DNA of 25,589 bases from a virus, in IMG/VR virus record IMGVR_UViG_3300035228_000387, positions 1-25,589 of that record; one strand, written 5' to 3'. Below the pieces are notes generated by a model. The model was not told where the DNA came from and ran no database searches. It saw only the letters and a list, made by a program, of their open reading frames with translations. The position numbers and the translations under genes are program-made. Below are positions 1,835 through 19,544 of the stretch, piece by piece (position 1 is the stretch's first letter; each line of letters opens with the position of its first letter).

Positions 1835-1842
1835 GTGGTTTT

Positions 1843-3064: not shown

Positions 3065-3086
3065 GGGGTGCCTTGCTGATGAATTA

Positions 3087-4017: not shown

Positions 4018-4019
4018 GA

Positions 4020-4407: not shown

Positions 4408-4434
4408 AAACCCCACCGCTATAGCGGTAGGGTT
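4403..4434 (-). terminator. Hairpin terminator after the 4419-4661 gene
   Basis: Arms 4409-4420 and 4423-4434 pair with one mismatch (C4414/A4429). On the minus strand the GGGGTTTTATAA tail gives a short U-rich run. The TAG stop (4421-4419) of the gene lies at the apex of the hairpin. Confidence 0.7.
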
Positions 4435-4661: not shown

Positions 4662-4664
4662 ATG

Positions 4665-4990: not shown

Positions 4991-5000
4991 TGTACTTAGT

Positions 5001-6245
5001 TTATGCGAATGAGTGTGCGGGGAGACCATCAACAAAGATAAGGTCAATAACTTTCTGGAGACGATTGCGGGTCGCCAGTGATGTTTTGCCCGATAGAGGC
5101 ACAGTCACAACACCATGAGATTTGCGGTACTGTGAGAGATTACCAGGAGTAATCTTGCCCTCAGCAATAGCTTTAACATCATCACTATGTAGGCGAATAA
5201 CACGCCCAATCGTCTGCGCCATCTCAATTACAGGCAGATTACGCAGTAAAATAGTGTGTGTCAGACCAGGAACATTGATACCTTCAGAGAGAATAGAATA
5301 ATGGAAGATGATAAACTTCTTGTCATCATCTTTGCCCCACTTCGTCAGAGTATTGAAGAACTCTTGACGACTGACTTTCTGACGATTGACATATGCACCA
5401 TGCTTAGATGTGATGTGCAGGATGTCATAACCTTTGGCATTTAGTTCTGCAAGAACATCAGTTTTAGACAACATGTTCCACAGAACACGAGTATTAGGAG
5501 CAGCAACTAGCACCTTTGCAGACTCTGCCTCAGACAAATCATCAACAACATCGATAAGCAGGTCACGATCTACCTCGTGTGCATTCTCTTTAGTGCGAAC
5601 AAGTTCGGACTCATGAACAACAAGCTTAGGTGGAATGATGCTGCCATTGTTGACGAGTTCAGGGGCAGGAACGAGCACAAGATCATCACCGAACACGACA
5701 CGATTGTTCATGCCGTTAGCATAAGGATTGCGACTGAATTTAGGTGTGGCAGTGAAGAAATATGCAGATTCTGCTGCCATAGATGTAGCAGCAACACCGA
5801 CAAAATGATTTTTCTGTGTTGCATTGTGTGCCTCGTCACAATACAGAACATCAACATCGATGCCACTATCAACAATCTTATGCAGACTGTGATAGGTAGT
5901 GAAGATTAACTGATGAAAGTTACCACGGCAGACAGCATTATGTGATGCAATCTGTGCGACTTTAGTAGCACGATAGGCATCAACCTCACCGCTGTGAACA
6001 TGCATAACAGCACAACTCACCTCACCGTTGAGATAACTATGAAACTCATCATAGAGTTGCACTGCGAGAAGAATACGAGGTGCAACAACTACAATTGTTT
6101 GTTTTTTATCAGACTGAAATCGACGCTTGCAATCTTCCATCATGATGACAGTCTTGCCACCACCAGTAGGAACATAAACGCAACCTTTGTTGGTTTTCTC
6201 GATTGCGTCAAGTGCTCGCTGTTGATGAGGACGAAGTTGCATCAT
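5001..6245 (-). CDS. SF2 DNA/RNA helicase (UvsW/Rad25-like), 414 aa
   Basis: A complete two-RecA-domain helicase: LRPHQQRAL Q-like motif (4-12), Walker A PTGGGKT (26-32), motif Ia VVAPRILLAVQ, motif II DEAH (137-140), motif III FTATP (164-168), motif V SEGINVP (320-326) and motif VI QTIGRVIR (344-351). It translocates on nucleic acid using ATP. The closest functional model is the T4 UvsW branch-migration helicase, which acts in recombination-dependent replication. This protein starts directly at the helicase core, so it lacks the extra N-terminal domain of UvsW and may be a different COG1061-type helicase. Start ATG at 6245 or 6242. It lies in a chain of small genes after an extended -10 at 6266-6274. 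Confidence 0.85.
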   Translation of the reverse strand: MMQLRPHQQRALDAIEKTNKGCVYVPTGGGKTVIMMEDCKRRFQSDKKQTIVVVAPRILLAVQLYDEFHSYLNGEVSCAVMHVHSGEVDAYRATKVAQIASHNAVCRGNFHQLIFTTYHSLHKIVDSGIDVDVLYCDEAHNATQKNHFVGVAATSMAAESAYFFTATPKFSRNPYANGMNNRVVFGDDLVLVPAPELVNNGSIIPPKLVVHESELVRTKENAHEVDRDLLIDVVDDLSEAESAKVLVAAPNTRVLWNMLSKTDVLAELNAKGYDILHITSKHGAYVNRQKVSRQEFFNTLTKWGKDDDKKFIIFHYSILSEGINVPGLTHTILLRNLPVIEMAQTIGRVIRLHSDDVKAIAEGKITPGNLSQYRKSHGVVTVPLSGKTSLATRNRLQKVIDLIFVDGLPAHSFA

Positions 6246-6265
6246 GTTTTGTCGCTTATGAAATA

Positions 6266-6274
6266 ATTATAGCA
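6266..6274 (-). promoter_or_regulatory. Extended -10 (TGCTATAAT) upstream of the helicase
   Basis: TGCTATAAT at 6274-6266 on the minus strand overlaps the stop codon (TAA) of the upstream gene and lies about 20 nt before the helicase ATG. There is no good -35. The same nonamer is found at 9888-9880. Confidence 0.45.
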
Positions 6275-6455
6275 GGTCCATATCCTTGCGTCTGTGTCTG
6301 TGTGACGGTTCATTGACTGACCTATACCATGGGTGCTCGTACTTTTTATTAATGTTATTCTCTTCCACCCATCTTTTCAAAGCATAATATCTTTCTCTCC
6401 AGATGTCAGCTTCAGATTGTTCCTGATTTTTTATTGAAGTTGTACTTAATGACAT
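6267..6455 (-). CDS. Hypothetical microprotein, 62 aa
   Basis: The ATG at 6455 gives a 62-aa charged product. A helical stretch (SEADIWRERYYALKRWVEENN) is followed by a basic His/Arg-rich C-terminus (EPSHRHRRKDMDLL). Such a tail could contact nucleic acid. The first 44 codon-bases overlap the end of the preceding 58-aa gene in another frame, so the two are coupled. No family recognised. Confidence 0.6.
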   Translation of the reverse strand: MSLSTTSIKNQEQSEADIWRERYYALKRWVEENNINKKYEHPWYRSVNEPSHRHRRKDMDLL

Positions 6456-6588
6456 ACTCTTCGTGTTGTTCTCCAGAACTTTGTACTATTTTAACATGTT
6501 CGATCCTATAATGCGGATCTAACATATTGCCAAGTGTATGTAGTTGCCACATAATTTCACTGGCACCTCTAGTATCTTCGTTACTCAT
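6412..6588 (-). CDS. Hypothetical microprotein, 58 aa
   Basis: The ATG at 6588 gives MSNEDTRGASEIMWQLHTLG, then NMLDPHYRIEHVKIVQSSGE, then an acidic/aromatic strand and a basic tail (KYNFNKKSGTI). It overlaps the AbrB-like gene upstream by 8 bp and the 62-aa gene downstream by 44 bp. The frame is fully open and sits in a consistent chain of overlapping starts, which supports translation. Function unknown. Confidence 0.6.
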   Translation of the reverse strand: MSNEDTRGASEIMWQLHTLGNMLDPHYRIEHVKIVQSSGEQHEEYVIKYNFNKKSGTI

Positions 6589-6754
6589 TCTGTTTACTCA
6601 TACTCTGATATGTATCAGGTTTAGTTAAACTCCAAGAACCATCTTGATTATCAATCCATTGCAATACATCACCCTCTTTCCATCCCATCTCTTCTAAGAA
6701 ATAGGGAGGGAATGTAAGCACTCCATCATCATCAACAGTAAGTGTAGTGCTCAT
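6581..6754 (-). CDS. AbrB/SpoVT-like swapped-hairpin domain protein, 57 aa
   Basis: The ATG at 6754 overlaps the upstream stop as ATGA. The sequence fits a small AbrB/MazE-type fold: MSTTLTVDDDGVLTFPPYFL (strand, DG turn, strand with P), then EEMGWKEGDVLQW (helix and GD turn), then strands ending WSLTKP. That family consists of dimeric DNA-binding transition regulators and antitoxins. Here the C-terminal 12 residues are polar. It could be a phage transcriptional regulator or the antitoxin of an unrecognised toxin. The similarity is by pattern only. Confidence 0.6.
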   Translation of the reverse strand: MSTTLTVDDDGVLTFPPYFLEEMGWKEGDVLQWIDNQDGSWSLTKPDTYQSMSKQNE

Positions 6755-7356
6755 GATTTAAGAAAGAAATTGCCAGCAATAGAAACTCTGTAGTCATCAG
6801 ATGTGTAGAAAGGATATACACAATGATGCATTTGTGCAGGGAATAACAACATCGTATTTTCAAATGATTTGTCTATTGGTAATGTAACAGCACTTAAACC
6901 TCCCATAGTATCCTGATAGAAAAGTTCAAATTTACCATTACATGTACCAGTCTCATCCTCTTCTTCTCTATTATAGGGCACTTTTAACCATATTACAAAG
7001 CTAAAGATGCCTCCATGATTATGTACTGGATTATATTCGTATTTCTCCTGAAAGTTTACCCAGGCATCAGGTAGACAGAAATGTGTATCATCTAAACTTA
7101 CATTATATTTGTTGGTTAGAAAGTTCTTCTCTCGTGAATATCTCTCTACCAATGGCATCAACAACGATTCTAATTGTTTGACGCAATTATCACTCAGCTC
7201 ATATTGTTTCTTGATGTGACCAACCAACTTGTAACTAGCATCTTTTGCTGCATTGAAATCATTTTGTATGATACTAACTTCATTCAATAGAAAGTCAATA
7301 TCACTCAATTCATGATGAACAACACCATAAGTGTCTAGTTGCAATAGATTAGTCAT
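6751..7356 (-). CDS. 2OG-Fe(II) oxygenase, cyanophage type, 201 aa
   Basis: The N-terminal 95 residues are helical. The C-terminal jelly-roll has WVNFQEKYEYNPVHNHGGIF with H112/H114, the SFVIWLKVPYN strand, and FPAQMHHCVYPF with H177/H178, then R190 (YRVSIAGN) as the likely 2OG contact. This resembles the 2OG-Fe(II) oxygenase family whose motif is H-x-H followed by FP-x3-H-x-V-x-P. The metal triad therefore seems to be HxH...H instead of HxD...H; it remains to be shown that it binds iron. It sits between two genes with ATGA overlaps and next to a sugar epimerase, which fits a role in modifying a surface or nucleotide-sugar product, though no substrate is known. Confidence 0.8.
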   Translation of the reverse strand: MTNLLQLDTYGVVHHELSDIDFLLNEVSIIQNDFNAAKDASYKLVGHIKKQYELSDNCVKQLESLLMPLVERYSREKNFLTNKYNVSLDDTHFCLPDAWVNFQEKYEYNPVHNHGGIFSFVIWLKVPYNREEEDETGTCNGKFELFYQDTMGGLSAVTLPIDKSFENTMLLFPAQMHHCVYPFYTSDDYRVSIAGNFFLKS

Positions 7357-7670
7357 GCAAATGCTGCTTGTAATGGATTTAGATTAAGTTGCATTGCAGT
7401 AAATGGTGTTGTATCGTCTATATTTACTTCAGCACCTACTTTATTTTTGTTGATGGGGGCATGGTAAGTGTGCGTAGTGCCTCTCTTTGCTGTTGTCTTT
7501 GTTTTACAGAATCCCCAAATTGTGTGATGTGGATTATTGCCATTAAAGAGATACCCAGGACGATATACAAGGAAAATTGCAATGACATTACTTTTGAACT
7601 GAACTTTCTCGTAGAAGTAGTCATCTGTTGGTGGTTCATGAATAAAATCAAGTGGGAGTTCAAGTGTCAT
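7353..7670 (-). CDS. Conserved phage hypothetical protein, 105 aa
   Basis: The start is set at the ATG at 7670, which forms an ATGA overlap with the epimerase stop; the frame itself reaches 7694. The product starts MTLELPLDFIHEPPTDDYF and is beta-rich, with VIAIFLVYRPGYLFNG, HHTIWGFCKTK, THTYHAPINKNKVG and a final TPFTAMQLNLNPLQAAFA. From memory, cyanophage hypotheticals share the TIWGF...YYAPIN...G...TPYTAMQ pattern. No function is known. It is coupled at both ends. Confidence 0.75.
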   Translation of the reverse strand: MTLELPLDFIHEPPTDDYFYEKVQFKSNVIAIFLVYRPGYLFNGNNPHHTIWGFCKTKTTAKRGTTHTYHAPINKNKVGAEVNIDDTTPFTAMQLNLNPLQAAFA

Positions 7671-8374
7671 AATACAGACCGAGTGGGAAACCATCCGATG
7701 TCATACAGTATTCTAGTATCTGCGGTGTTGTCTTGCCTCTCACCTGGTGTCAGTTCTTTGACCGGAAGATGCCCCATGCCCATCTTGTCTGCGAGCTCTC
7801 TTACACTGACAGCGGTGCCCGTTCCGACTGATACAGGACCTCTGACGGTGCTCACAGCGAGGTAACGAATGGCACGGCATACATCATGAACATGAATCCA
7901 ATCTCTTGTGTGATTGGTCACATAAGTTGCAGTTTTATCCTCTAGCATTCTATACATCATATCAGGGCGACTGTCCTCCCCGTATACTGTCGTCAATCTT
8001 AGACCAATGGAGCGAGGTGGTGCCATGACTTCATTGATCCATTTCGTCATCGCGTATGGATTCTCCCAATACTCACCATCTACAGCACTAGATGATGCAT
8101 AGATCAGCAATGTGTTGGTATCTCTACACCAATTAAACAACTTCCGCGCCTTTTCTACATTATTATCGTAGAACTTATGCGGGTTATCTAAGCTTTCACG
8201 AATATTTGCAAACGCTGCCAGGTGGATGACCAGATCATAGGGTCCGCGATTAAAATTGGCAATATCATCAGGAATATCAATTCCATCAACACATTTGTCT
8301 CCTAATTGTTCTTGCCAATCAGCATATACATGTCTACCAATGAAACCTTTGTATCCTGTGACTAATACTTTCAT
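7667..8374 (-). CDS. NAD(P)-dependent epimerase/dehydratase (short SDR), 235 aa
   Basis: An extended-type SDR: the Rossmann GxxGxxG motif is G7-Y-K-G10-F-I-G13, HLAAFANIRES (51-61) matches the H-x-A-A motif, YASSSAVDG (92-100) carries the catalytic Ser, and Y107-AMT-K111 is the YxxxK pair. It would epimerise, dehydrate or reduce a nucleoside-diphosphate sugar. At 235 aa it is much shorter than the usual 300-350 aa of UDP-galactose 4-epimerases; the C-terminal substrate domain is reduced. ATGA overlaps on both sides place it in a coupled operon. The DNA is somewhat more G/C-rich at the 3' end than its neighbours. Substrate unknown. Confidence 0.85.
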   Translation of the reverse strand: MKVLVTGYKGFIGRHVYADWQEQLGDKCVDGIDIPDDIANFNRGPYDLVIHLAAFANIRESLDNPHKFYDNNVEKARKLFNWCRDTNTLLIYASSSAVDGEYWENPYAMTKWINEVMAPPRSIGLRLTTVYGEDSRPDMMYRMLEDKTATYVTNHTRDWIHVHDVCRAIRYLAVSTVRGPVSVGTGTAVSVRELADKMGMGHLPVKELTPGERQDNTADTRILYDIGWFPTRSVL

Positions 8375-8709
8375 CCTTCTTCTTTAACCTCCCATGATCC
8401 ACCAACACCACCATCCATGTTGACAATAATATCTTGCTCTCCTACAGGGGTATATGGATGCTGAGGTTTGTGCTCTCTATCCATAGGTTGAGACTTGGTA
8501 TTGTCATCCTTAGATAGATTTTTAAGCACAATGAATGCATCTTTATTATACTTACGATCACCTTTTTGAGATGCCCATTTCTTATTGTATCCCTCAGTTT
8601 GTTCAATGCCACTCACCTGAGTGCCACCAATCTCCAGGACAATATCATCATTTTCAATATCCCACCCCAAGTACAACATAGTAGCGTGGAAGTCATCGTA
8701 AGTAAGCAT
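8371..8709 (-). CDS. Hypothetical protein, 112 aa
   Basis: The ATG at 8709 overlaps the previous stop by one base. The N-terminal part (MLTYDDFHATMLYLGWDIEN, DDIVLEIGGTQVSGIEQTEG) looks like a small globular domain. A lysine-rich middle (NKKWASQKGDRKYNKD) and a low-complexity polar/Pro tail (QPMDREHKPQHPYTPVG) follow, then an acidic Gly end. It overlaps the epimerase by ATGA. No family recognised. Confidence 0.7.
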   Translation of the reverse strand: MLTYDDFHATMLYLGWDIENDDIVLEIGGTQVSGIEQTEGYNKKWASQKGDRKYNKDAFIVLKNLSKDDNTKSQPMDREHKPQHPYTPVGEQDIIVNMDGGVGGSWEVKEEG

Positions 8710-9020
8710 TAGCCGAAACCTTTTTGTGAACGAGATTTTTGTGATGGATTGTCTTTATCTAGCACTTCAATTCGATCAAGAAATAGTCCCCTATTCCACC
8801 AAATCTCATGCGCTTGTGCCCAGTTGTCAACTACAATTTCATCACCATTCTTGGCAATGATCTTGTAGTTATGGCGATCATAAAGACCGTCACTAGTTTG
8901 TGAGAAAGTCGGTGTCATTGGTGTCATTTTACGGCGCTCAACTGGGTCAAATCCTCTACCTTTAACAACTGCACTCCATGGTGCATATAGTGGACCATCA
9001 TAGTCTTTAAAATTTTGCAT
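8709..9020 (-). CDS. Hypothetical protein, 103 aa
   Basis: The ATG at 9020 (MQNFKDYDGPLYAPWSAVV) is preferred over an in-frame GTG at 9026. The start lies inside the 3' end of the 46-aa gene (14-bp overlap). The middle, YDRHNYKIIAKNGDEIVVDNWAQAHEIWW, suggests a beta hairpin plus helix; the C-terminus is Ser/Arg/Lys-rich (SQKSRSQKGFG), a possible flexible tail. The KIIAKNGDEIVVDN stretch resembles small phage SH3-like or KOW-like strands, but the similarity is too weak to name a domain. Confidence 0.7.
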   Translation of the reverse strand: MQNFKDYDGPLYAPWSAVVKGRGFDPVERRKMTPMTPTFSQTSDGLYDRHNYKIIAKNGDEIVVDNWAQAHEIWWNRGLFLDRIEVLDKDNPSQKSRSQKGFG

Positions 9021-9147
9021 TGACACTAACTACCGTAGCGTTAGGGTTACGAGCTAGTGCAACTTGCTTTGCTTCTTGATAGTCGCGAGCATATACTTCT
9101 TCTTTGAAGACTGTGCCTGCGACGAATAGAGTGACTTCATGTTTCAT
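9007..9147 (-). CDS. Conserved-looking microprotein, 46 aa
   Basis: The ATG at 9147 encodes MKHEVTLFVAGTVFKEEVYA, RDYQEAKQVALARNPNATVV and SVNAKF. The pattern is strand-strand-helix-strand, a compact fold like the 51-aa protein at 4835-4990. It starts 6 bp after the candidate nuclease gene and overlaps the next gene by 14 bp. The clear amphipathic helix and balanced composition support translation. Function unknown. Confidence 0.7.
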   Translation of the reverse strand: MKHEVTLFVAGTVFKEEVYARDYQEAKQVALARNPNATVVSVNAKF

Positions 9148-9153
9148 GATTAA

Positions 9154-9879
9154 TTACTGATAAATGTGGAACATCATGCCGTGGTAACCTGAATTATACT
9201 TCTTACCAGACCCTTTCATTTGCAGATGAAACAATTTGAAACCATCAGCGGTGCGAAACTCTAGAGTTGTGCGATTAAGTTTCCACTTTCCACCTTGACA
9301 TTGATGAGCTAGATCATCGATGTTGATGATCTTCATGTCATCTGTTTTCTTGTTGCGCCACACCATTTTAGTGACAGGCATACCATCATCAAGACCACGA
9401 CGCACGATGACATTGAAGATCTCCATCTTATAGGCGTTCATGAAGTTCAGGAAGGCGTCCTGAATACCTTGAGGGATATTGTCAGCGTAGACACGATTTT
9501 GACGGATCTCAGCGTCACTCAGAGGCAGATCCTTATGACGCAATGCGACAGTTGACATGCCAAAATTGTTAGGCACACCGAAGAACAAACGAATGAAAAG
9601 AGCTGGAAAAGTATCTTCTAGATCAAAATACTCCATGAATTTGCGAGAAGAAAGCAGAGCAACTTGTGTGTGGTTCTTGCTTACATTCTTGACAGAATAT
9701 GCAGTAGTTGAATCATTGTCATAGATGTCAACTTTAGTCTGTGGACGACCATCAGTGACATGATCACCACCGAACATCTCGTTCATTGTGGCAGTCAGAT
9801 CACGCTCATACTCGTGCCCTTGTGCCTTTGCCAGTCGTCCTGCTTCAACAGCGTTCATGTTGCTTTGCTTGTTATCCAT
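9154..9879 (-). CDS. Candidate PD-(D/E)XK-like nuclease, 241 aa
   Basis: Residues 19-75 look like the core of a restriction-endonuclease-like fold: a helix with acidic residues (AQGHEYERDLTATMNEMFGG, E23/E25), then GRPQTKVDIYDN with D51, then a strand AYSVKNVSKNHTQVALLS with K64. The second acidic residue of (D/E)-x-K is replaced by Ser62, a variation I believe occurs in some phage nucleases with S-x-K. The C-terminal half is mixed alpha/beta with many basic residues. It follows the terminator of the 9933-10976 gene by about 10 bp, so the two genes form a compact unit. The ATG at 9879 lies next to a TATAAT; the in-frame ATG at 9858 (MNAVEAG) is an alternative start. No methyltransferase is nearby. 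Nuclease activity is inferred. Confidence 0.5.
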   Translation of the reverse strand: MDNKQSNMNAVEAGRLAKAQGHEYERDLTATMNEMFGGDHVTDGRPQTKVDIYDNDSTTAYSVKNVSKNHTQVALLSSRKFMEYFDLEDTFPALFIRLFFGVPNNFGMSTVALRHKDLPLSDAEIRQNRVYADNIPQGIQDAFLNFMNAYKMEIFNVIVRRGLDDGMPVTKMVWRNKKTDDMKIINIDDLAHQCQGGKWKLNRTTLEFRTADGFKLFHLQMKGSGKKYNSGYHGMMFHIYQ

Positions 9880-9888
9880 ATTATAGCA
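9880..9888 (-). promoter_or_regulatory. Extended -10 abutting the nuclease start
   Basis: TGCTATAAT at 9888-9880 is followed directly by the ATG at 9879. A transcript starting 6-8 nt downstream would begin after that ATG, which favours the downstream start at 9858 or a leaderless arrangement from another promoter. Confidence 0.45.
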
Positions 9889-9915
9889 AATAAAAAGGGG
9901 AGCTTCACGCTCCCC
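9888..9915 (-). terminator. Rho-independent terminator after the 9933-10976 gene
   Basis: A perfect 7-bp GC-rich stem (GGGGAGC 9897-9903 with GCTCCCC 9909-9915), a 5-nt loop, and TTTTTATTT on the minus strand. It lies 18 bp after the stop at 9933. Confidence 0.9.
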
Positions 9916-9938
9916 GACCAGTTCTTAGATTGTCACAG
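9916..9938 (-). repeat. Stop-embedded quasi-palindromic element 6
   Basis: GACCAGTTCTTAGA then TTGTCACAG on the plus strand; the CCAGTTCTT core matches element 5 and the TGTCAC arm matches elements 2, 4 and 7. The TGA stop (9935-9933) lies in the right arm. Terminator and extended -10 follow. Confidence 0.55.
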
Positions 9939-10976
9939 TCCGACGATACGGTTGGGATCGTCACCGAACTCACCTTTGATCTGAGGATAGAATTGATCCT
10001 TATCAAAGGGGAGTTTCCAATCATTGTTGAGCATGTAGAGCGACAATGACTTGCAGATCATACGAAACTCTTCCCACTTGTAGTTTTGAGTTTCGCGCAT
10101 TGCTTCAATATATTCCTCATTATCACCTTTGTTCTCAAAGTGTTGCACCACCTTGACAACTCTACCCCGCGCATGGTATTCCTTCATCAAAGCATATACA
10201 CGATCTTGGAAGTAGTGATAAGGGAAGGAATAGTCAACATCAACATCATCAACACATTTGGTGCTAAGCCATTCCCTGCACTCATTGTCACGCCAAGCAA
10301 TAGTCTTGGTAGGAACATCGCATCCCTTGATAACATTACGAACAACCTCATTCTTATCTTGGGTTGCCATGTTAGGAGCTGATTCAAACACAAAGTCACG
10401 AATAAGTGATTCTTCCTTTTGCATCTCACCTGCTGCAATCAGGGAAGCACAGGAATATTCAATATCTTCCTTTGTGTGCGATTCTTGAGGCAAACCGTCG
10501 TTCTCTTGTTGCAACCAAACTTCACGGTTATATGCAGCAGAACGACCCATAGTTTCGATGAAGTCAACCTCATCAAACCATGCACCATCAGTATATCCAT
10601 TCAAGAAATCTGACTTCTTACGGGTAATGCCATTCTCACCTTTCCAGTAGAAAGTTTTACCATTAATGTCAGTAATGACAGCTGGTGAGATGGCAGGTAG
10701 GGGGCAAGTTGCATCAATACCTTGTGCTCTAGAGTTAGCAAGACCTTTGATATTCTTCTTACTAGATCCTCTCTTGCGAGCAGGGTTCTCTTCAGTTTCG
10801 CCCCAGTAAATATCTTCGTAGTTATGGTAGTTACGACCGAGGTGCTTAACACCTTCTCCACCCTTGAATTCATAAGAGAAGAAATCCGCATCAATGTTAC
10901 GGAGTTCATTGTAAGGAACACGCCCTGCTTGCGTGTCTTCAAAAAACATAGTCATAGTAGTTAAGTCAGCGCCCAT
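9933..10976 (-). CDS. Unknown 347-aa protein, possibly ParB-like N-terminal half
   Basis: The ATG at 10976 is used; in-frame Met at residues 8 and 10 are alternatives. The region at about residues 85-145 (PLPAISPAVITDINGKTFYW, KGENGITRKKSDFLNGY, GAWFDEVDFIE) recalls the strand-turn-helix of ParB/sulfiredoxin-like domains with a G-E-x-G-x-x-R core; this is a weak match. The C-terminal half is acidic and helical with many Trp/Tyr. Its ribosome-binding site precedes a 6-codon ORF that overlaps this start. It has its own near-consensus promoter, an efficient terminator, and the candidate nuclease gene right after it. I do not recognise its family. Confidence 0.75.
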   Translation of the reverse strand: MGADLTTMTMFFEDTQAGRVPYNELRNIDADFFSYEFKGGEGVKHLGRNYHNYEDIYWGETEENPARKRGSSKKNIKGLANSRAQGIDATCPLPAISPAVITDINGKTFYWKGENGITRKKSDFLNGYTDGAWFDEVDFIETMGRSAAYNREVWLQQENDGLPQESHTKEDIEYSCASLIAAGEMQKEESLIRDFVFESAPNMATQDKNEVVRNVIKGCDVPTKTIAWRDNECREWLSTKCVDDVDVDYSFPYHYFQDRVYALMKEYHARGRVVKVVQHFENKGDNEEYIEAMRETQNYKWEEFRMICKSLSLYMLNNDWKLPFDKDQFYPQIKGEFGDDPNRIVGL

Positions 10977-10986
10977 TGCGCTTCAT
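10966..10986 (-). CDS. Putative 6-codon leader ORF (MKRNGR)
   Basis: A GGAGGT ribosome-binding site (10998-10993) with 6-nt spacing points to the ATG at 10986, which opens a 6-codon ORF ending at a TGA at 10968-10966. This ORF overlaps the ATG at 10976 in another frame. It may be a leader for translational coupling, or the remnant of an alternative N-terminus. Low confidence as a product. Confidence 0.3.
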   Translation of the reverse strand: MKRNGR

Positions 10987-11000
10987 TTGTTTACCTCCAT

Positions 11001-11030
11001 ATTATACAGCAAATATGGGGGCTGTGTCAA
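11001..11030 (-). promoter_or_regulatory. Consensus sigma70 promoter for the 9933-10976 gene
   Basis: TTGACA (11030-11025), 18-bp spacer, TATAAT (11006-11001) on the minus strand: both hexamers are perfect. It is the best match to the bacterial housekeeping consensus in the window, suggesting immediate early transcription by host polymerase. Confidence 0.85.
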
Positions 11031-11046
11031 CTGTGTTACGATTCCG

Positions 11047-12447
11047 TCACATCTCAATTGGGTCTAGGTTGATCTCACCAAACGGTTCGGGCGGCAGGAT
11101 AGGATCAGACATAACAGGGAATTTATCAGCATATGGTGCTCCTAATCCCTTGATAGCTTCAATGAAGATCTGATAGTTACTTCCTACAGTTCTATAAATT
11201 TCATCAGAACCTTTGTCAGTCATTCTCATCTTAAGGTGACGAGAATTCTCTGATTGGCGTCTGAAGTAATCCAGTCTAATATTTTCATGAATAGGAATAT
11301 AGTCATGAGAATAACCATCCTGATATACTTCTCTTCTCTCTACATCATGGAAAGTTCTATCTTCTAAGAATCTACATGAATCTTCTCTAGTTTTTACCCA
11401 GAAATCAGATTTGTATTGTGCTCCAAACTGACAATAGAAAGCGAGAGTTGTTGCATAATCTTTCTTAGCATCTTCCCATCTATCTTCTACTTCAAGACGC
11501 TGGAAGTTTGAGAATTGTCTATCAGGATCTTCATAGAGGAACATTGAAATTGCCTCTGATAGATCTGCCTCTGGATATGTCTTGAATCCTAACAATTCAT
11601 CATTAAATCCTAAAGCGCGACCACTTCTAGCATATCTACCACATGGATGAATGCAGTAATCAGAGATATTGTGATCATGATTTGTTTTTTTGTATGAGCA
11701 ATGCTTCTTGATTTCGCAATGCTTGTTGAAGTCTGCTACAGCTTCTTTCTCTGTAGTAATTTCATGATCATATGAATATACCCAGGTCTGTGAATCAGCA
11801 GTAGGAATACCAGTCAGATAACCATGCTCACATGCAACAAATGCAGTGTAATTCCAATCACCAGGAACTCTACGATTGACTGTCAGTGTTGTATCTGTAG
11901 GATTGTAGTATGCCTCATGAAAATCATTTTCAGTTCCCTCTGCGATACCACCTCTCACACAATCAACGACAAAATCAAATGCCTCACCGTCAATACTACA
12001 TCCTTTCTTGTTAATTTTTAATGAGTTTACTCTCTTATCTACAAGGATTACATCACCCCATTTATGTTGCTTGGTGAAGTTATCCCAGAAGAAATCAACT
12101 AGTTTACCCTCATCGAGATGAATACTAGACTCGCTAGTATCATAGTAATTGAAAAAGTTATAATCTCTTCTAGCTCCAAACCCAATAAATTTCATGCCTA
12201 GTTTTCTCGTCGCATCAAATTTGCGATGGAAATCTACACAACTAAGAGTAGTATTATTACCAATTATACTAACACCTAGAGGATCCATCTGAATCCCAAA
12301 GTTTTCTACTTTATGACTACAATCTCTGATCCAATAGATGACATCATCAGAGTATACGCAGTCGATACCATTTCTAGCACCAACTAACTGGGTTAATGCT
12401 AGTACAGCATCAGCTCCAGCACCAATAATTGCAATTTTTCTGCTCAT
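11047..12447 (-). CDS. Tryptophan-halogenase-like flavoprotein, 466 aa
   Basis: N-terminal Rossmann motif IIGAGADAVLAL (7-18) for FAD; FDFVVDCVRGG (157-167) matches the flavin D-C-x-G strand. CEHGYLTGIPTADSQTWVYS (206-225) aligns with the W-x-W-x-I-P region of flavin-dependent tryptophan halogenases, but the tryptophans are replaced. GRYARSGRALGFNDELLGF (270-288) fits the family's G-x-A-x-G-F-x-x-P-L/E segment in a degenerate form. The enzyme class uses FADH2, O2 and halide to halogenate an indole or other aromatic; a non-halogenating monooxygenase is equally possible here. It carries an AATAAATA late-type promoter 23 bp upstream, so it would be made late. Related genes are known in cyanophages, with unknown substrate. 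Confidence 0.75.
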   Translation of the reverse strand: MSRKIAIIGAGADAVLALTQLVGARNGIDCVYSDDVIYWIRDCSHKVENFGIQMDPLGVSIIGNNTTLSCVDFHRKFDATRKLGMKFIGFGARRDYNFFNYYDTSESSIHLDEGKLVDFFWDNFTKQHKWGDVILVDKRVNSLKINKKGCSIDGEAFDFVVDCVRGGIAEGTENDFHEAYYNPTDTTLTVNRRVPGDWNYTAFVACEHGYLTGIPTADSQTWVYSYDHEITTEKEAVADFNKHCEIKKHCSYKKTNHDHNISDYCIHPCGRYARSGRALGFNDELLGFKTYPEADLSEAISMFLYEDPDRQFSNFQRLEVEDRWEDAKKDYATTLAFYCQFGAQYKSDFWVKTREDSCRFLEDRTFHDVERREVYQDGYSHDYIPIHENIRLDYFRRQSENSRHLKMRMTDKGSDEIYRTVGSNYQIFIEAIKGLGAPYADKFPVMSDPILPPEPFGEINLDPIEM

Positions 12448-12671: not shown

Positions 12672-13850
12672 CTACTTAGAATCCCACTGCTTGTCAACAG
12701 TAATGTTTGCAATACGAAACTCATCATCAACAAACTTGAGCATTTTGTTGTTGTGGTGTGCAACATAACCCTCAGGTGTGGTAGGACGAGAACCTACAAA
12801 TGTCTTGATAGACTTTTCTTTGTTGAGTTGCTTGAGAACCATCTGCTTTGCAGTACGGATACTGATGTAAGATGCAATCAAGAAGTATAGCTCTTTCTCA
12901 TACTTTACGATGAACTGTGTGCCTTGTGCCTTAGCATCTTTCCAACGCTGAATAGCACGAGCACTTTTCTTAGATGCAATCTCAATGTCAATAGCTGTAG
13001 TATAATATTTGGCAAACTTAGCAACAATATCTTTTGTATTAGCAATCTTCTTATTGGCACGAATCTGCTCATTGAAGAAACGCTTGAGCATGAGATTTAT
13101 GACAAATCTAGATTGACCCTGCAACAAAATGTTATCAAGAAATGCAGATGAACGCTTGAGTGAACCTTCTGCTACCCTGATAGTAGATTGAAAACTTACC
13201 GCATCGCGAGGATTGAATAGGGTAACACCAGTGGCATCAGCAAAATCCGCACTGGCAACAAACACATCTTTAGTAGAAAGATACTTAGGGGCTTGTTTTT
13301 GCGGTACAACTTGAGCAGTCTGGAGAGTATCTCCCTTATAAACTGTATGAAATACGATGCCAAGTTTGGAGAGATGAATCGCAGAAGCTTTTCTGGAACC
13401 CAAAGGAACAGCGTAAGTAATGGTATTAGGAGTAAAACAAATAACTCGGTTTCCACCGACAATACCGCTCCTTTTATCGTCTTGAGTGAATAGTAAGTCA
13501 CCTTGCACAATACCTGAGATATTCAGTTGTGGAAGATACGCTAAGCAATCTTTGAGTTTGCTAGCAAGTTGACCTGTATAGAAACGATCTACATCAGTAT
13601 CATCAAAACAAATCTTAGGACTAACTTTGTTGAATACAGACTTAGTGCCAATGAAGAAACGACCTGTGACAGGTTCTGTGCCACACACAATAGCAGGAGC
13701 ACCATCCCATTTTGTAGTCACGCTGATCTCACTGGGAACACCAGTCAGCATGTGACCGAACTGACGCAGAAACGAGATGACATCTTTGCCACCAGTGGAA
13801 CCGCTGTTGAGAATGTCGTCTTCTAGGTGCTCTAGGTGTGTGTTTTTCAT
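12672..13850 (-). CDS. Divergent nucleotidyltransferase/ligase-like protein, 392 aa
   Basis: Motifs of the covalent nucleotidyltransferase superfamily (DNA/RNA ligases, capping enzymes) appear in order: motif I K47-W-D-G50, a GRFFIGTKSVF strand (63-73), motif III VQGDLLF (115-121), motif IIIa-like GIVFHTV (164-170), motif IV E360-G361-Y-V, and motif V-like MLKFVD (370-375). K47 would be the adenylated lysine. Between IIIa and IV lies a helical insertion of about 190 residues (170-358), unusual for ligases. From memory, phage proteins with a TKWDGAPA motif are grouped as a DUF without tested function. A TATAAT and AGGAG site lie just upstream of ATG 13850. Activity (ligase, AMP transfer or inactive) is inferred. 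Confidence 0.65.
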   Translation of the reverse strand: MKNTHLEHLEDDILNSGSTGGKDVISFLRQFGHMLTGVPSEISVTTKWDGAPAIVCGTEPVTGRFFIGTKSVFNKVSPKICFDDTDVDRFYTGQLASKLKDCLAYLPQLNISGIVQGDLLFTQDDKRSGIVGGNRVICFTPNTITYAVPLGSRKASAIHLSKLGIVFHTVYKGDTLQTAQVVPQKQAPKYLSTKDVFVASADFADATGVTLFNPRDAVSFQSTIRVAEGSLKRSSAFLDNILLQGQSRFVINLMLKRFFNEQIRANKKIANTKDIVAKFAKYYTTAIDIEIASKKSARAIQRWKDAKAQGTQFIVKYEKELYFLIASYISIRTAKQMVLKQLNKEKSIKTFVGSRPTTPEGYVAHHNNKMLKFVDDEFRIANITVDKQWDSK

Positions 13851-13895: not shown

Positions 13896-13915
13896 ACAGT
13901 TTGCCAGGTGTCACC
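13892..13915 (-). repeat. Stop-embedded quasi-palindromic element 7
   Basis: GTGGACA, GT, TTGC, CAGG, TGTCAC on the plus strand, the same pattern as elements 2 and 4 more than 12 kb away. It contains the TGA stop (13913-13911) of the oxygenase gene and partly overlaps the hairpin. Confidence 0.65.
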
Positions 13916-14507
13916 TGAAAGCTGGACCGTTTGCCCATACCACCAATGATCTGCGGATGCCCTCTGTGACTGGCGTAACTCTATGCACACGATAGGAAGG
14001 GAACACGATAACATCTCCCCTATTATCTGAAGCTTCAACTATATTTCCATCGCTTATTTCTAGTCCACCACCATCATAGTCCTCAGGATCTGATAGTTGT
14101 ATTGACATGGACAGTTTTCTAGGTGGTAGATCCGTCAGCATATTATTATCTACATGCCAATCATAGTGTGTGCCACTACCATCGTATACTGTGTATTGTA
14201 AATGCTCATGAAATCCATGGATATCATATTTCCAATACATGCCATTCATACATCTAAGAATTTTACCTAGACGCTGATATATCCACTCTGTGTCATCATT
14301 TAACTCTATCCATGATGTCTTTGATACTCTTATATTATCGATAACTCCAGGTTCTGTGGTGTTACCCACTACTGCACTATCTAAATCACAAGATTCACCA
14401 AGTTTGATGATCTTATCACATTCTTCAGGTGTAAATCCTTCATCCCAAGTTTCAAAACAAGTCTCGCCACCAAAACTAGGTGACGGACAAAGACGATAAA
14501 TTGACAT
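13911..14507 (-). CDS. PKHD/prolyl-4-hydroxylase-type 2OG-Fe(II) oxygenase, 198 aa
   Basis: Canonical triad: H118-V-D120 (THYDWHVDNN) and distal H175 (SYRVHRV), with R186 in the R-x-S-L-V-x-W motif for 2-oxoglutarate. LQYTVYDGSGTHYDWHVD and YDGGGLEI are typical of the PKHD-type/P4H-like subfamily. The N-terminal F-T-P-E-E-C-D-K-I-I helix is also typical. These enzymes hydroxylate prolyl or other side chains. It begins 8 bp after the collagen-like gene on the same strand and shares its likely late transcript. The collagen repeats place Pro before Gly, the usual target, so the neighbouring protein is the best substrate guess. It ends the late block with hairpin and repeat element 7. Confidence 0.9.
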   Translation of the reverse strand: MSIYRLCPSPSFGGETCFETWDEGFTPEECDKIIKLGESCDLDSAVVGNTTEPGVIDNIRVSKTSWIELNDDTEWIYQRLGKILRCMNGMYWKYDIHGFHEHLQYTVYDGSGTHYDWHVDNNMLTDLPPRKLSMSIQLSDPEDYDGGGLEISDGNIVEASDNRGDVIVFPSYRVHRVTPVTEGIRRSLVVWANGPAFR

Positions 14508-14515
14508 AATTTAGA

Positions 14516-16489
14516 TCAGTAAATGTAACGAATGTCACCACTATTGGGGATAACTTGATACTTATCACCTTCGACAGCTCTACCAGCATCACCACCAGGA
14601 CCACCCTGACGGGTTGATGGTTGACCTGCTATACCCCAGTCTCCACCGAAACCACCTGGTTCTCCAGCCTGACCGGGTTGACCAGATGTACCAGCATTAC
14701 CAGGCGTACCAGGTTGACCAGTCTGACCTTGAGTACCAGGTTGACCAGCGGATCCAGGTTGTCCAGGAGTTCCAGAGGATCCAGGAGTTCCAGGAGTTCC
14801 AGGTTGACCACCAGCACCTCTAGATCCACGCCTACCTTTTTTACCCTTGCTGCCCCTACCGCCAGGTGTGCCAGGTGTACCAGCACTACAGCTTGCAGCG
14901 CCTCCAGGTGTACCTTGAGTACCGCGCTGACCAGGTGTTCCAGGTTGACCAGGTGATCCACTGCCACCACTTCCACCAGGTGTGCCACTACTACCAGGTG
15001 TGCCGCCCGTACCAGGTGTTCCAGGTGTTCCAGGTTGACCAGGTGTTCCAGCCTGACCAGGTTGACCAGGACCGCCACCACCGCCAGGTGTGCCAGGTTG
15101 TCCAGGAGTTCCAGGCGTACCTACAATATTTCCTGTCTTATAGTTCCATCCGCGACCAGGGGCAGCGATACCTCTGATACCCTTAATACCACCAGTACCA
15201 TCATATCCAGCAGGACCGCCAACACCACCAGAGCCGCCTTGTCCACCCATTCCACCAGTGCCAGGTCCACCACCTGAACCAGCGCCACCGCCACCGCCAC
15301 GGCTGCCACCGCCACCGCCGGATCCACCGCCGCCACCAGAACCGCCGGATCCTCCAGAACCGCCAGAACCGCCGGATCCTCCTGCACCGCCAGAGCATCC
15401 CTTCCTTCTCTCACCAGTAGCTCTCTGCTGGAAGTATGATACTGACTGATAACCACTCCGCTCCTGCTTAGGACCACGACGCGGTTTTGGCCAACCTCTG
15501 TAACTCTTTCTCCTCTTTCTTCTATTTCTTTGAGAATTTCTGTTCTCTTTCTGTTGTCTTTGTCTAAATGATTGTCTTTGTTGACCAGAACTACCAGGTG
15601 ATCCATTGCCACCAGGGCTACCGCTACTACCAGATCCACCTGATCCGCCACTACCACCAGGTGATCCACTACTACCATTTGATCCAGGGGATCCATTTTG
15701 TCCACCAGCACCAGGTGATCCATTAGGAGACCTACCGAAGGAAGAACCAGGTGATCCAGAAACACCAGTGGTAGCAGTGTTTCCATCAACACCAGTGAAA
15801 CCATCAGATCCAGGAGCTCCGCCACCACCACCAGCATAGATTCTGGCGTCAGTACCCTCACACTCTACAAATACCTTTCTAATTGCAGGCGCACCAGGGT
15901 TAGATACTGAAATAGCATGACCACCAGGTTGACTAATTGCACCACCAGCTGAATACACACCATAAGATGGTGGTGCGTTGTTTACATATACATTCAGGTT
16001 TGATGATGCCTGGTTAGCAATGACAGCAGGAGTTGCTACTGTACCACTTACAATCCTACCTTTAATTTTGAGGTATTTTGATATATTTTTGTTTAAATTT
16101 GAGTTCCAGTCAACAGCGACACTAGGTGTAGTTGGACTGGATAGTGTAGTTACATTAAAGTTCTCTTCTTCAGTATTAGGATCTTGCTCAATAACATACT
16201 CTTTGATGACATTTCTAATATCATCTGGTGTAATTGCACCATCGGTAGGAATGCCAACATGTTCAGTGGCATCTAGAACATATGGTAAATGAGATGAACT
16301 AGATGTTGGATATTTGCCCTGACTAAAGTCATACGGGGCGTCTAAGTCTGTAACTCTGTAAAGTTCTCTAGCAGAGATCGATGCAGTAGTGTTACCAAGA
16401 CCAGATCTAATATCGCCAAAAGATATCTGCGTACCAGGAGCACCAGTTAGGAGTTCTTCTGTTTTTTTACTCCAATCATTAGACGCCAT
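14516..16489 (-). CDS. Collagen-like, Gly-rich tail fibre/adhesin protein, 657 aa
   Basis: Residues 1-100 look like a phage fibre base: QISFGDIRSGLGNTTASIS and ARELYRV match short motifs of tail fibre and neck proteins. Residues 101-215 form a globular beta-rich part. Residues 219-302 and 366-440 are Gly/Ser-rich, and 303-365 is a strongly basic Arg/Lys/Gln insertion. Residues 456-640 are Gly-X-Y triplets with mostly GTP, GQP and GSP, then a short tail with IPNSGDIRYIY. Gly-X-Y arrays form triple helices, expected for a trimeric fibre or tip. Pro is nearly always in the Y position. It lies 10 bp after the 1014-aa repeat protein and 8 bp before a prolyl-hydroxylase-like gene. Long antisense Pro-rich frames here are by-products of the repeats. 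Confidence 0.8.
   Translation of the reverse strand: MASNDWSKKTEELLTGAPGTQISFGDIRSGLGNTTASISARELYRVTDLDAPYDFSQGKYPTSSSSHLPYVLDATEHVGIPTDGAITPDDIRNVIKEYVIEQDPNTEEENFNVTTLSSPTTPSVAVDWNSNLNKNISKYLKIKGRIVSGTVATPAVIANQASSNLNVYVNNAPPSYGVYSAGGAISQPGGHAISVSNPGAPAIRKVFVECEGTDARIYAGGGGGAPGSDGFTGVDGNTATTGVSGSPGSSFGRSPNGSPGAGGQNGSPGSNGSSGSPGGSGGSGGSGSSGSPGGNGSPGSSGQQRQSFRQRQQKENRNSQRNRRKRRKSYRGWPKPRRGPKQERSGYQSVSYFQQRATGERRKGCSGGAGGSGGSGGSGGSGGSGGGGGSGGGGGSRGGGGGAGSGGGPGTGGMGGQGGSGGVGGPAGYDGTGGIKGIRGIAAPGRGWNYKTGNIVGTPGTPGQPGTPGGGGGPGQPGQAGTPGQPGTPGTPGTGGTPGSSGTPGGSGGSGSPGQPGTPGQRGTQGTPGGAASCSAGTPGTPGGRGSKGKKGRRGSRGAGGQPGTPGTPGSSGTPGQPGSAGQPGTQGQTGQPGTPGNAGTSGQPGQAGEPGGFGGDWGIAGQPSTRQGGPGGDAGRAVEGDKYQVIPNSGDIRYIY
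14570..15124 (-). repeat. Collagen-like Gly-X-Pro triplet coding repeat
   Basis: A stretch encoding residues 456-640, dominated by GGT-ACA/CAA-CCT-type triplets (many copies of CCAGGTGTACC-like units on the plus strand). The array is near-perfect in phase with a few breaks (GGGGG and a Cys-containing island at about 531-537). Recombination between units would easily change its length. Confidence 0.8.
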
Positions 16490-16499
16490 GTCTTAAATA

Positions 16500-19400
16500 T
16501 CAGGAAAGTGTAAATGTGACTGATCCGACGCCTGCAACACTAATGTATACCTTAGTAGGATCTAAGGCGTCCTGTTCAATATTTAGTGAGGAAGTTCCAG
16601 AGGACACATAGGATCTGAAGATACTTGCATCGAAGCAATCAGTACCCTGTGCTGTTGCATATTGGTGCTTATTGTACTGCTTATTGTAAACCATATGGGC
16701 AGTACCTAAACCAGGACCAAATGAATTGGATGGATCAAATGGTTGAATCTCGTTATCAACAGTATTGCCAAGATCAGTTCCTCTAGTAGCATCACTATTA
16801 GTAATACCACCAACAAATCCAAGGTGAATTGCATACTGACCGACATCAAAGAAGAAGTCAACAGCAGTCGAAATACCCATGGGCTCGTTGCTATTGTCAA
16901 AAACGAATGGGATGTTTTCTGTTGTATTAAAGTACAGACAACCACGGAAGTTATCACTAGTAGCAGGACCACCATCAATATATGAAGGCATAGCAAAGTA
17001 ACCACCCTCAACATGTGACATGTCGAAGCTTGTTCTAGGAGCAAGAGTTCCTATACCAATGCGAATGAATCCAGATTCTGTGCCACCTGCACCAGTAGCT
17101 CTCTCATGGAATACTGTATTCTTGTAAACTTCAAAGTTATTTTCTTCTATCGCTGATCCATGCGTACCGATGGCAACACCACCCTCAAAGAGTGAATGAC
17201 CACCACTAAAATCTACGCCAACTCTACCATGACCAACATATAAGCTAGTATTACCAGCTCTCTTACCAGATGTTGTGCCAATACCAATACCACGGGTATT
17301 GCCTTGCATGAAGATCTCGGCATCATCAAATCCAGCGATACCTTCAGCAATTGGGAAGTTAGTTAATGTAGTGTTGAAACCAATTCTAGTTGTAAGGAAG
17401 TTTGTTGCCTGACCATCAGTAATATCAAGGTTAGCAACAGTACAGATACCTGCCTCAGAAAGAATAAAGGATGAGAAAATACCATGACCACCAGAATTTA
17501 AGTCGCCAGCATCTATTAGGTCACCATAGTTAAGGTTAATACCCGTACATGTGATAACACCAATCGTGTCGATATCACCAGCATCTTTAATCCCACCACT
17601 GTTAAGTTCTATTCCGCCACAAGTAACAAATCCAGTTTGAGCGTCAATGTTACCAGCTTGATTAATATCGCCATTGTTCAGGAATAAACCGCCACAAGTA
17701 ATAATACCTGTACCTGCAAAAATATCTGCAGTACTACTGATACTACCACCTCTAAGATTTAATCCACCAAATGTGCTGATTCCTGTTGCATTAATTTGCT
17801 TACAAGTAATGATACCGCCAGTAGCATCAATATTACCTCTAGCTGAAATGAATCCTGAAACACCATCAAGTAAGATCTTACCGAATGTTGCAATTGCACC
17901 ACCAGTATTGGAGAAGTTACCTTCAACAACAAGATCTTGACATACAACCTTACCAGTTGTAACTACACCAGTGGTATCATTTATAGAAACAGCACCAGTA
18001 ATATTAACTGGTTGAGTGAAACCAATTTCTGTGCCGCCAATAGCTACGCTACCACCTACAGTCAGTTCATTACCAATTACAAAGTTCTTACCCGCGTTTT
18101 GAGTTACATTACCAGTAATTGTCGTGTCATGTAATACACAACTAGATGTTGTAGTTGCAGAAAGAATACCAGTTGCAATAATCTCACCAGCAGTGACATC
18201 AGAGACATCAACTGCACCACCAAATGTACCACCGATAGCTAAGTTTCCGCCAACAAAAAGGTCACCAGAGAATGTGCCATCACCCCGAACATCAGCACCG
18301 CCAATAACACCAAGACCTCTACCTAATGCAGAGCTAGTAGAACCAACACCAACAAAGTTACCTACACTAATTTCACCACCAAATGTAGATATACCAGTGT
18401 TTCTAATAAAGATGCTATTGATACCAATAGATGTAATCTCATCAACTGAAATATCAGGCGTACCAGTTAATCCCGCCGCCACACCTGCGATACCAGTGAT
18501 ATCACCAATAACATTGCCAATAAATCCACCAGCAGCACCAAGTGCGCCAGTGAATGTACCCGTACCAACAATATCGACAGCATAAGATTCCCTCGGTCTA
18601 GATGTACCCACACCTACTCGACCTTCTCTTGTAGCTACAACTCTAGGTAAAAATGTAGATCCTTGAAGACCCCATAATTCTAACTGTCCACCATCAGATC
18701 CATCTACATTTTGTACTGTTCCGTTGTAAAGAACTGAAAGAAGATCTGTACCCGTTGCAATTTCTTTGAATGAGAGACCACTTCTAGAGTCTCCTAAAGT
18801 ATTAACACCAACAAATGAAATGGTTTTTTCAATACCATTTACAGTAAGACCTGTTGCTCCACCTGTAATAATACCTGTGGCAATATCGAGTTGACCAAAT
18901 GAACCTACGCCAATTGTCTCAAAGTTACCAGTACCATTAGTAATAGATTGAATACCACTGATGGATCCAACCATAGCGATATTGCCCTGCTGAGCATTAC
19001 CGCTTAATGTAAGATTTTTCGCTTCTAATTCTTGATATGTACCAACACCACTAATTGCATCTATTTGAACTATATCACCTACAGCAAAATCTGCCTGTGG
19101 GAATGTTACGGATATCCCAACAGGTCTAAACGCATAGATTGTTGATCCTACTCCAGGATTATCATTATCCCATACAGATGTAGGAAGGTTAGTTAAAGCT
19201 GAACCATCACCAACAAAACTAGTTGCTGTTACTCTACCATCTGCCGTAATAGTTGCACCAGTTGTACCAACACCAACTTGAAAAGTTGCCTCAGGTACGG
19301 TCGTGCCGATGCCAACTGAACTACCTACAGCAACATTAATGTTGCCATAATGTGTAGCAAAACCAATAACATTTACATGTCGTAGATTGGTTTCATTTTC

Positions 19401-19544
19401 GACAATTACATTGCCACGGACATCGAGAGTCTCACGAGGAATCGTGGTCCCAATACCTACCTGACCACCAACTGATACCAGATCGTTTTCATCGACCTGA
19501 ACACCATCCCGAAAATTGATAATAGTCTTATAATTCGTTGGCAT
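16500..19544 (-). CDS. Large repeat-containing fibre-like virion protein, 1014 aa
   Basis: The ATG at 19544 is 28 bp after a GATAAATA late promoter. The N-terminus (MPTNYKTIINFRDGVQVDEN) leads into repeated VGIGT-T-x-P-x-x-TLDVRG units, then many Gly/Asn/Thr-rich short strands, as in phage fibre shafts. Residues 560-690 carry five approximate 30-residue repeats of the type G-I-I-T-C-G-G-L-x-L-N-x-G-x-I-x-x-A-G-D-I. The C-terminal 150 residues look globular (FFFDVGQYAIHLGFVGG; YVSSGTSSLNIEQ). No S74 chaperone is present. It is probably part of the tail fibre or baseplate appendage with its neighbours. Conserved in style with cyanophage fibre genes; receptor binding is inferred. Confidence 0.75.
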   Translation of the reverse strand: MPTNYKTIINFRDGVQVDENDLVSVGGQVGIGTTIPRETLDVRGNVIVENETNLRHVNVIGFATHYGNINVAVGSSVGIGTTVPEATFQVGVGTTGATITADGRVTATSFVGDGSALTNLPTSVWDNDNPGVGSTIYAFRPVGISVTFPQADFAVGDIVQIDAISGVGTYQELEAKNLTLSGNAQQGNIAMVGSISGIQSITNGTGNFETIGVGSFGQLDIATGIITGGATGLTVNGIEKTISFVGVNTLGDSRSGLSFKEIATGTDLLSVLYNGTVQNVDGSDGGQLELWGLQGSTFLPRVVATREGRVGVGTSRPRESYAVDIVGTGTFTGALGAAGGFIGNVIGDITGIAGVAAGLTGTPDISVDEITSIGINSIFIRNTGISTFGGEISVGNFVGVGSTSSALGRGLGVIGGADVRGDGTFSGDLFVGGNLAIGGTFGGAVDVSDVTAGEIIATGILSATTTSSCVLHDTTITGNVTQNAGKNFVIGNELTVGGSVAIGGTEIGFTQPVNITGAVSINDTTGVVTTGKVVCQDLVVEGNFSNTGGAIATFGKILLDGVSGFISARGNIDATGGIITCKQINATGISTFGGLNLRGGSISSTADIFAGTGIITCGGLFLNNGDINQAGNIDAQTGFVTCGGIELNSGGIKDAGDIDTIGVITCTGINLNYGDLIDAGDLNSGGHGIFSSFILSEAGICTVANLDITDGQATNFLTTRIGFNTTLTNFPIAEGIAGFDDAEIFMQGNTRGIGIGTTSGKRAGNTSLYVGHGRVGVDFSGGHSLFEGGVAIGTHGSAIEENNFEVYKNTVFHERATGAGGTESGFIRIGIGTLAPRTSFDMSHVEGGYFAMPSYIDGGPATSDNFRGCLYFNTTENIPFVFDNSNEPMGISTAVDFFFDVGQYAIHLGFVGGITNSDATRGTDLGNTVDNEIQPFDPSNSFGPGLGTAHMVYNKQYNKHQYATAQGTDCFDASIFRSYVSSGTSSLNIEQDALDPTKVYISVAGVGSVTFTLS
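17475..17867 (-). repeat. Tandem approximately 30-residue repeats inside the 1014-aa protein
   Basis: The coding region for residues 560-690 has five degenerate units alternating ATG-I/F-V-T-C-G-G-I and L-N-x-G-x-I-x-x-A-G-D/N-I. Each unit probably gives one turn of a beta-solenoid or beta-prism. Nucleotide identity between units is moderate, so this is an older duplication. Confidence 0.65.

Follow-up and report, generated by a model that had tools for sequence, protein, structure and literature searches.

What does a phage do with a 2-oxoglutarate (2OG)-dependent oxygenase encoded directly behind a collagen-like protein? The question is raised by IMG/VR virus record IMGVR_UViG_3300035228_000387, whose entire 25,589 bases formed the window analysed here and which is probably a genome fragment. 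It carries an open reading frame (ORF) for a collagen-like protein of 657 amino acids (aa), followed by one for a PKHD-type 2OG-Fe(II) oxygenase of 198 aa; an earlier, sequence-only reading had delimited both correctly, on the minus strand and exactly 8 bases apart. T4-like cyanophages were the top nucleotide matches of the window, and photosystem reaction-centre genes occur in four records that hold relatives of the gene pair, so that the source is likely a marine cyanophage. We conclude, with a probability of roughly 0.7, that the oxygenase serves the phage as a dedicated prolyl hydroxylase of the adjoining collagen-like protein, in which it would hydroxylate the Pro residues at the Y position of the Gly-X-Y repeats (Y-Pro). 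No report of such a pairing in phages was found in the open-access PMC literature.

The pairing of the two genes is conserved. A search with the N-terminal domain of the collagen-like protein alone retrieved 24 viral loci, some of them on near-duplicate contigs, and the oxygenase lies downstream in all 24, at a spacing of 8–13 bp in nearly all and with one ORF in between in L042. Because the collagen-like partner was set by the query, the presence of the enzyme is the informative part of this result. The enzymes from an oxygenase profile search were pooled with those of the other loci and reduced, at about 85% identity, to 83 distinct sequences. In the clade at or above about 43% identity (34 distinct oxygenases), a Gly-X-Y protein lies close to 33, at most about 2.1 kb upstream or 0.9 kb downstream of the enzyme gene. 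For the single exception only 1.4 kb of upstream sequence is present. Of these 34 enzymes, 8 were found via the collagen-like gene itself or belong with its orthologues, and their partners are not independent evidence. For this clade, the outcome favours the sequence-only reading, which had asked whether homologous oxygenases are equally often near non-collagen genes. Pairing is weaker at 36–43% identity (10 of 25 oxygenases), and relatives below about 40%, including all of those in cultured cyanophages, are mostly located elsewhere; the claim of pairing is therefore limited to the clade and does not cover all phage 2OG oxygenases. The partners within the clade have at least two unrelated N-terminal architectures, both belonging to Y-Pro proteins.

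Among the cultured phages in the collection searched, none carries this oxygenase clade (best identity 39%), and of 13 cultured-phage loci with distant relatives, only that of DLP_6 has a Gly-X-Y ORF of at least 12 triplets. In S-SSM5, S-RSM4 and MS29 (L559, L565 and L566), distant relatives of the enzyme lie a few kb from Gly-rich proteins (32–34% Gly) without regular Gly-X-Y repeats, that of S-SSM5 matching Pfam Gly_rich_2. In three loci (L041, L042 and L295) a single collagen-like gene is followed by a tandem pair of PKHD oxygenases, whose site preferences may differ. Gly-X-Y gene and oxygenase are often separated by a gene of about 240 aa, for example at 7310-8038(+) in L169 (phrog_7084; no Pfam match), similar 0.7-kb genes being present in other loci.

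The position of Pro in the collagen-like protein is strongly biased. The earlier observation that Pro in the array almost always precedes Gly holds for 29 of the 30 Pro in residues 456–640, and over all Gly-X-Y runs of the protein (100 triplets) Pro occurs 35 times at Y and once at X (two-sided binomial p about 1e-9, with repeat units that are non-independent). Mutation alone fails to explain this bias, because a change of one base would give a Pro codon at more X than Y positions (53 versus 29). Compared with the close relative L476, whose oxygenase is 96% identical to that of the window, none of 28 substitutions at X involves Pro, versus 11 of 21 at Y that gain or lose one. L476 (NYTN01000080.1) is titled a Rhodobiaceae metagenome-assembled genome (MAG); it is a phage region on a bacterial MAG contig, probably a mis-binned phage contig. 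The strict Gly-X-Y runs comprise residues 257–304, 364–396, 398–442, 457–531 and 537–617, the array being interrupted by a conserved basic insert and a poly-Gly/Ser block. The longest uninterrupted runs count 25 and 27 triplets, compared with the at least 10 by which collagen-like proteins are recognized. The protein scores 18.4 bits against the Pfam Collagen (PF01391) cut-off of 27.2, which the oxygenase partners in L008, L169, L291 and L331 pass. An AlphaFold2 single-chain model was uninformative (pLDDT 35).

Preference for Y tracks the presence of the enzyme. Gly-X-Y proteins near the clade contain 920 Pro at Y and 90 at X. As a control, phage sequences were searched with a pattern of 12 consecutive Gly-X-Y triplets that is blind to Pro; in the resulting 106 proteins, none of which has a family member nearby, Pro occurs 1065 times at X and 218 times at Y, in agreement with the X preference described in PMC3368898. 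Y-dominant proteins make up 26 of 33 in the oxygenase clade versus 9 of 106 controls (Fisher p 1.6e-14, ignoring relatedness). The same distinction is seen within single contigs, where the oxygenase-near gene and another Pro-rich Gly-X-Y gene have X1/Y50 versus X118/Y0 (L169), X4/Y12 versus X68/Y3 (L290) and X1/Y17 versus X53/Y3 (L326). Two phages whose Y-Pro proteins have no adjacent oxygenase (L089 and L132) carry this clade elsewhere in their records (2e-57 and 3e-63), compared with 1 of 30 control contigs. The complete genome of S-SRM01 (240,842 bp) encodes a homologue of the N-terminal domain without the Gly-X-Pro array, and the clade oxygenase was not found there by a search that detects positives; such absences rest on the oxygenase profile only, because known members escaped a whole-record search with PF13640. 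This oxygenase was also not found in the records of short Y-Pro tracts located by DNA pattern (L050, L102, L121 and others), several of which are short or apparently non-coding (L072 and L118).

Two further records with Y-Pro, L068 and L087, contain other PF13640 enzymes. L068 encodes at 1-6897(+) a Gly-X-Y protein of 2299 aa with an uninterrupted run of 264 triplets and Pro 373 times at Y and 0 at X; a different PF13640 enzyme lies elsewhere in that record. Next to Gly-rich proteins in L120 and L157 there is another 2OG subfamily (DFIGIY.DVYPEGYC...), which is the only family member in L087, 7 bp from the Y-Pro protein.

The enzyme itself is predicted to have a prolyl-hydroxylase-type fold with complete catalytic residues. 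It matches PF13640 at 3e-15 (57.4 bits, cut-off 27), and an AlphaFold2 model from 57 phage sequences (pLDDT 91), with Foldseek matches to PDB 4iw3, 9ghl and PHD2, supports a double-stranded beta-helix; the best PDB matches of the model were Pseudomonas putida prolyl 4-hydroxylase (P4H), PHD2, an algal P4H with a Ser-Pro peptide and PiuC. Of the catalytic set named earlier, H118, D120 and H175 stand, whereas the 2OG-binding Arg is R185 (G183-x-R185-x-S187) and not R186; these four residues are invariant in 57 sequences. The gene is under purifying selection, with ratios of nonsynonymous to synonymous substitution (dN/dS) of about 0.15 and 0.23 versus two relatives. In the animal/algal-type collagen P4H group, including that of chlorella virus, a Lys binds the 2OG carboxylate, unlike Arg185 at this position, and homology to collagen-type P4Hs was not significant (phmmer; best P4H matches E 0.06, Bacillus-type, and 0.42, algal). 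By sequence, the oxygenase falls outside the collagen-type P4H family; prolyl-hydroxylase-like action is a separate claim.

In the mechanism that we propose, both genes would be expressed from the same block late in infection, and the oxygenase, with Fe(II), O2 and 2OG, would hydroxylate the Y-Pro (X-Pro-Gly) in the Gly-X-Pro arrays, either ahead of assembly or in the course of it, presumably by 4-hydroxylation. This would stabilize a polyproline-II-type rod, most simply a trimeric collagen triple helix, which would end the tail fibre or form its adhesin tip. Homology of the N-terminal domain to a tip protein annotated in S-SRM01 makes a tail-tip role likely, and the collagen-like protein is more like a tail-tip adhesin rich in Gly than like a simple collagen fibre. 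The earlier suggestion that the phage hydroxylates its own fibre gains support from the pairing within the clade (33/34) and from clade-specific Y-Pro, hydroxylation itself being what we infer from them. Such a dedicated enzyme-substrate pair would amount to prokaryotic hydroxylated collagen, and phage adsorption would depend on O2, iron and 2OG in the infected cell. It would also provide a concrete, testable role for P4HA-annotated and 2OG genes; viral P4HA-annotated genes are abundant and present in 62% of Baltic water stations, and their use has been called 'cryptic' (PMC9301287).

Several observations weigh against this conclusion. A sister clade of enzymes (26–33% identical; L171, L182, L188, L190, L216 and L229) stands beside collagen-like proteins whose Pro is confined, or nearly so, to X; these loci were found via collagen patterns, and their adjacency is partly by selection. 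Family membership fixes neither the residue nor the position, because this clade pairs with X-Pro proteins. Within the clade of the window enzyme, L287, L318 and L330 are near arrays with little or no Pro, and L322, L347 and L337 are near proteins that our classification rule assigns as X-type or Pro-poor. The residues that bind Fe and 2OG are also common to Asn, Lys and other hydroxylases, and the Gly-rich protein may fold as polyglycine-II instead of collagen. A quick enzyme tree with modest supports mostly keeps X-type apart from Y-type partners (4 changes among 50 labelled rows). Read most simply, Pro position varies together with enzyme clade, suggesting a specificity that differs between the clades.

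An alternative is that the enzyme modifies the neighbouring Gly-X-Y protein on a residue other than Pro: Lys/Arg, or the Thr, Gln, Ser or Asn that stands in front of Pro. The modification might then provide a sugar handle or receptor contact and not stability through Pro. The family of the window protein has mainly T, S and Q at X, and other families often N or A, and the sister clade occurs beside X-Pro collagens with Thr or Lys at Y, two of which also have PLOD-like glycosyltransferases. We nevertheless consider this explanation unlikely, given that Y-Pro is the feature common to the non-homologous partners of the clade, that Pro turnover is confined to Y, and that most of the closest solved folds belong to prolyl hydroxylases.

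The oxygenase could also be a mere neighbour in a tail cassette that acts on another virion target, with Y-Pro as a structural trait of a Gly-rich polyglycine-II adhesin. The sole cultured homologue of the N-terminal domain in the phage collection is the S-SRM01 protein annotated as gp37-gp38 adhesin tip complex (37% over 97 residues). The gp38 of T2-type phages is a polyglycine-II sandwich (PMC12892980), although gp38 structures gave no sequence match to the window protein in PDB searches. Furthermore, cyanophage genomes hold many 2OG genes (PMC9602691), three of them in the window. Against a bystander, however, Y-Pro and the oxygenase co-occur even when non-adjacent and are both missing in S-SRM01, other nearby Gly-X-Y genes on the same contigs are X-type, and the pairing is common to two unrelated N-terminal architectures, which makes this account rather improbable.

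Cyanophage 2OG oxygenases in general have been proposed as regulators of host 2-oxoglutarate or as DNA repair enzymes (PMC3037559, PMC9602691). That the present oxygenase is such a host-directed auxiliary gene, lowering 2-oxoglutarate or repairing DNA, is very improbable, since a metabolic gene would not be expected to keep a conserved place among the tail-fibre genes or to pair strictly with a single type of protein. Hardly credible is an artefact of assembly, a frameshift or the expansion of a repeat by luck in one phase: the array consists of repetitive DNA, and at first sight the basic insert resembles a frameshift, but this insert is conserved in relatives on many independent contigs, which rules out a frameshift behind it, Y-Pro recurs in unrelated proteins, substitution patterns are position-specific, and an assembly chimera is excluded by identical gene order in many contigs.

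A dedicated prolyl hydroxylase may be one part of a wider system. L182 (IMGVR_UViG_3300020409_000778; 2801-4621(-), 4621-5178(-) and 5196-7196(-)) encodes a collagen-like fibre of the Gly-Pro-Thr/Gly-Gln-Lys type, which a PKHD oxygenase follows after 18 bp, and a 607-aa GT25 + PLOD-GT + 2OG protein. L216 has the order collagen-like protein, PKHD oxygenase, GT25 + PLOD-GT, the last cut by the contig end. GT25 with PLOD-GT (and 2OG in L182) is the domain set of collagen lysyl hydroxylase/glycosyltransferases, and the gene content of both cassettes lends support to the broader notion that collagen-like fibres are modified by phages, at Lys in addition to Pro. At 2729-12341(-) in L179 (a 170-kb record), two large Gly-Pro-Ile/Gly-Pro-Gln collagen-like ORFs, with X-Pro in 272 of 308 and 187 of 279 triplets, precede a protein of 795 aa that combines two glycosyltransferase domains with a 2OG-like end, and then a PKHD oxygenase. 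We tentatively propose, at somewhat less than even odds, that the two enzyme clades belong to phage collagen-maturation cassettes, one for the Y-Pro of Gly-X-Pro tail-tip proteins and the sister clade, with PLOD-like lysyl hydroxylase/glycosyltransferases, for Gly-Pro-Thr/Gly-Gln-Lys fibres. If so, collagen bearing hydroxyl groups and sugars would be widespread among the virions of marine phages, and some of the surplus 2OG oxygenases of cyanophages would serve virion maturation and not metabolism.

The layout of the locus is given in Table 1, with the parts of the collagen-like protein listed from N- to C-terminus. Co-transcription of the two genes is suggested solely by their spacing, because promoter-motif searches gave no excess: the T4 late-promoter motif TATAAATA was found 0 times versus 1.3 expected, and sigma-70-type matches were not above those in shuffled sequence. 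The window contains two more 2OG-oxygenase-like genes, at 6751-7356(-) and 1862-2350(-) (PF13759 over cut-off, PF13640 below cut-off); a scan with the second 2OG gene of the window, as a single protein, gave one locus.

Table 1. Features at the collagen-like protein/oxygenase locus of the window.
Feature	Position	Strand	Support
Upstream tail protein; N-terminal part matches phrog_3269; position kept in relatives	16500..19544	-	
Collagen-like/Gly-rich ORF, 657 aa, ATG; probable tail-fibre tip protein, proposed substrate	14516..16489	-	Orthologues in relatives
Non-repetitive domain at the N-terminus (residues 1-218), 61-91% conserved across 24 viral loci; partly homologous to S-SRM01 'adhesin tip complex'	15836..16489	-	
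First strict Gly-X-Y run, residues 257-304, Pro at Y	15578..15721	-	
Basic Arg/Gln-rich insert, residues 305-363	15401..15577	-	Alignment: conserved in relatives
Gly/Ser-rich Gly-X-Y block, residues 364-442, very little Pro	15164..15400	-	
Main Gly-X-Pro array, residues 457-617, break 532-536; T-P-G, Q-P-G and S-P-G triplets; proposed hydroxylation sites	14639..15121	-	
C-terminal cap, residues 618-657, conserved, ending ...GDKYQVIPNSGDIRYIY	14519..14638	-	Alignment
Gap between the two ORFs, 8 bp	14508..14515	-	
PKHD-type 2OG-Fe(II) oxygenase, 198 aa, ATG; proposed prolyl hydroxylase	13911..14507	-	PF13640, invariant residues, AlphaFold2, Foldseek
Downstream DUF6267 gene; synteny conserved; context only	12672..13850	-	

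Known systems resemble the two genes in different respects. The gp38 adhesins of T2, S16 and PP01 are Gly-rich distal fibre tips (polyglycine-II sandwich, PMC12892980), as the window protein probably also is; it differs from them by longer uninterrupted Gly-X-Y runs (25–27 triplets) rich in Y-Pro. The Escherichia coli prophage protein EPclP is likewise a phage structural protein with Gly-X-Y domains, but its Pro is mostly at X, and bacteria and viruses are described as lacking prolyl hydroxylases for Y-Pro (PMC3368898). On the enzyme side, the nearest solved sequences are PiuC (PDB 9ghl and 9qn1; E 2e-10) and Sbal_3634 (3dkq; E 4e-8), which have the HxD...H...R set in common with the window enzyme and, unlike the phage gene, are bacterial chromosomal enzymes linked to iron uptake. 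We know of no collagen partner of PiuC-type PKHD oxygenases. P. putida P4H and PHD2/EGLN1, the best or near-best fold matches, are protein prolyl hydroxylases that use Arg for 2OG, and their substrates are EF-Tu and HIF, respectively, not Gly-X-Pro repeats.

Collagen-like proteins and collagen-modifying enzymes do exist in some large viruses, as the earlier reading noted. Mimivirus has, like the window, collagen-like proteins and an enzyme modifying them, the lysyl hydroxylase/glycosyltransferase L230. This three-domain enzyme acts on Lys in a virus of a eukaryotic host, and its domain set is that of phage contig L182 and not of the window. The second precedent, Paramecium bursaria chlorella virus 1, is a virus of eukaryotic algae, and the window enzyme is distinguished from its P4H by the use of Arg for 2OG and by having no significant match to solved collagen-type P4Hs. 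Like the proposed phage enzyme, the chlorella virus P4H is a virus-encoded prolyl hydroxylase, for which there is evidence of hydroxyproline in proteins of the virus (Eriksson et al. 1999, cited in PMC9301287).

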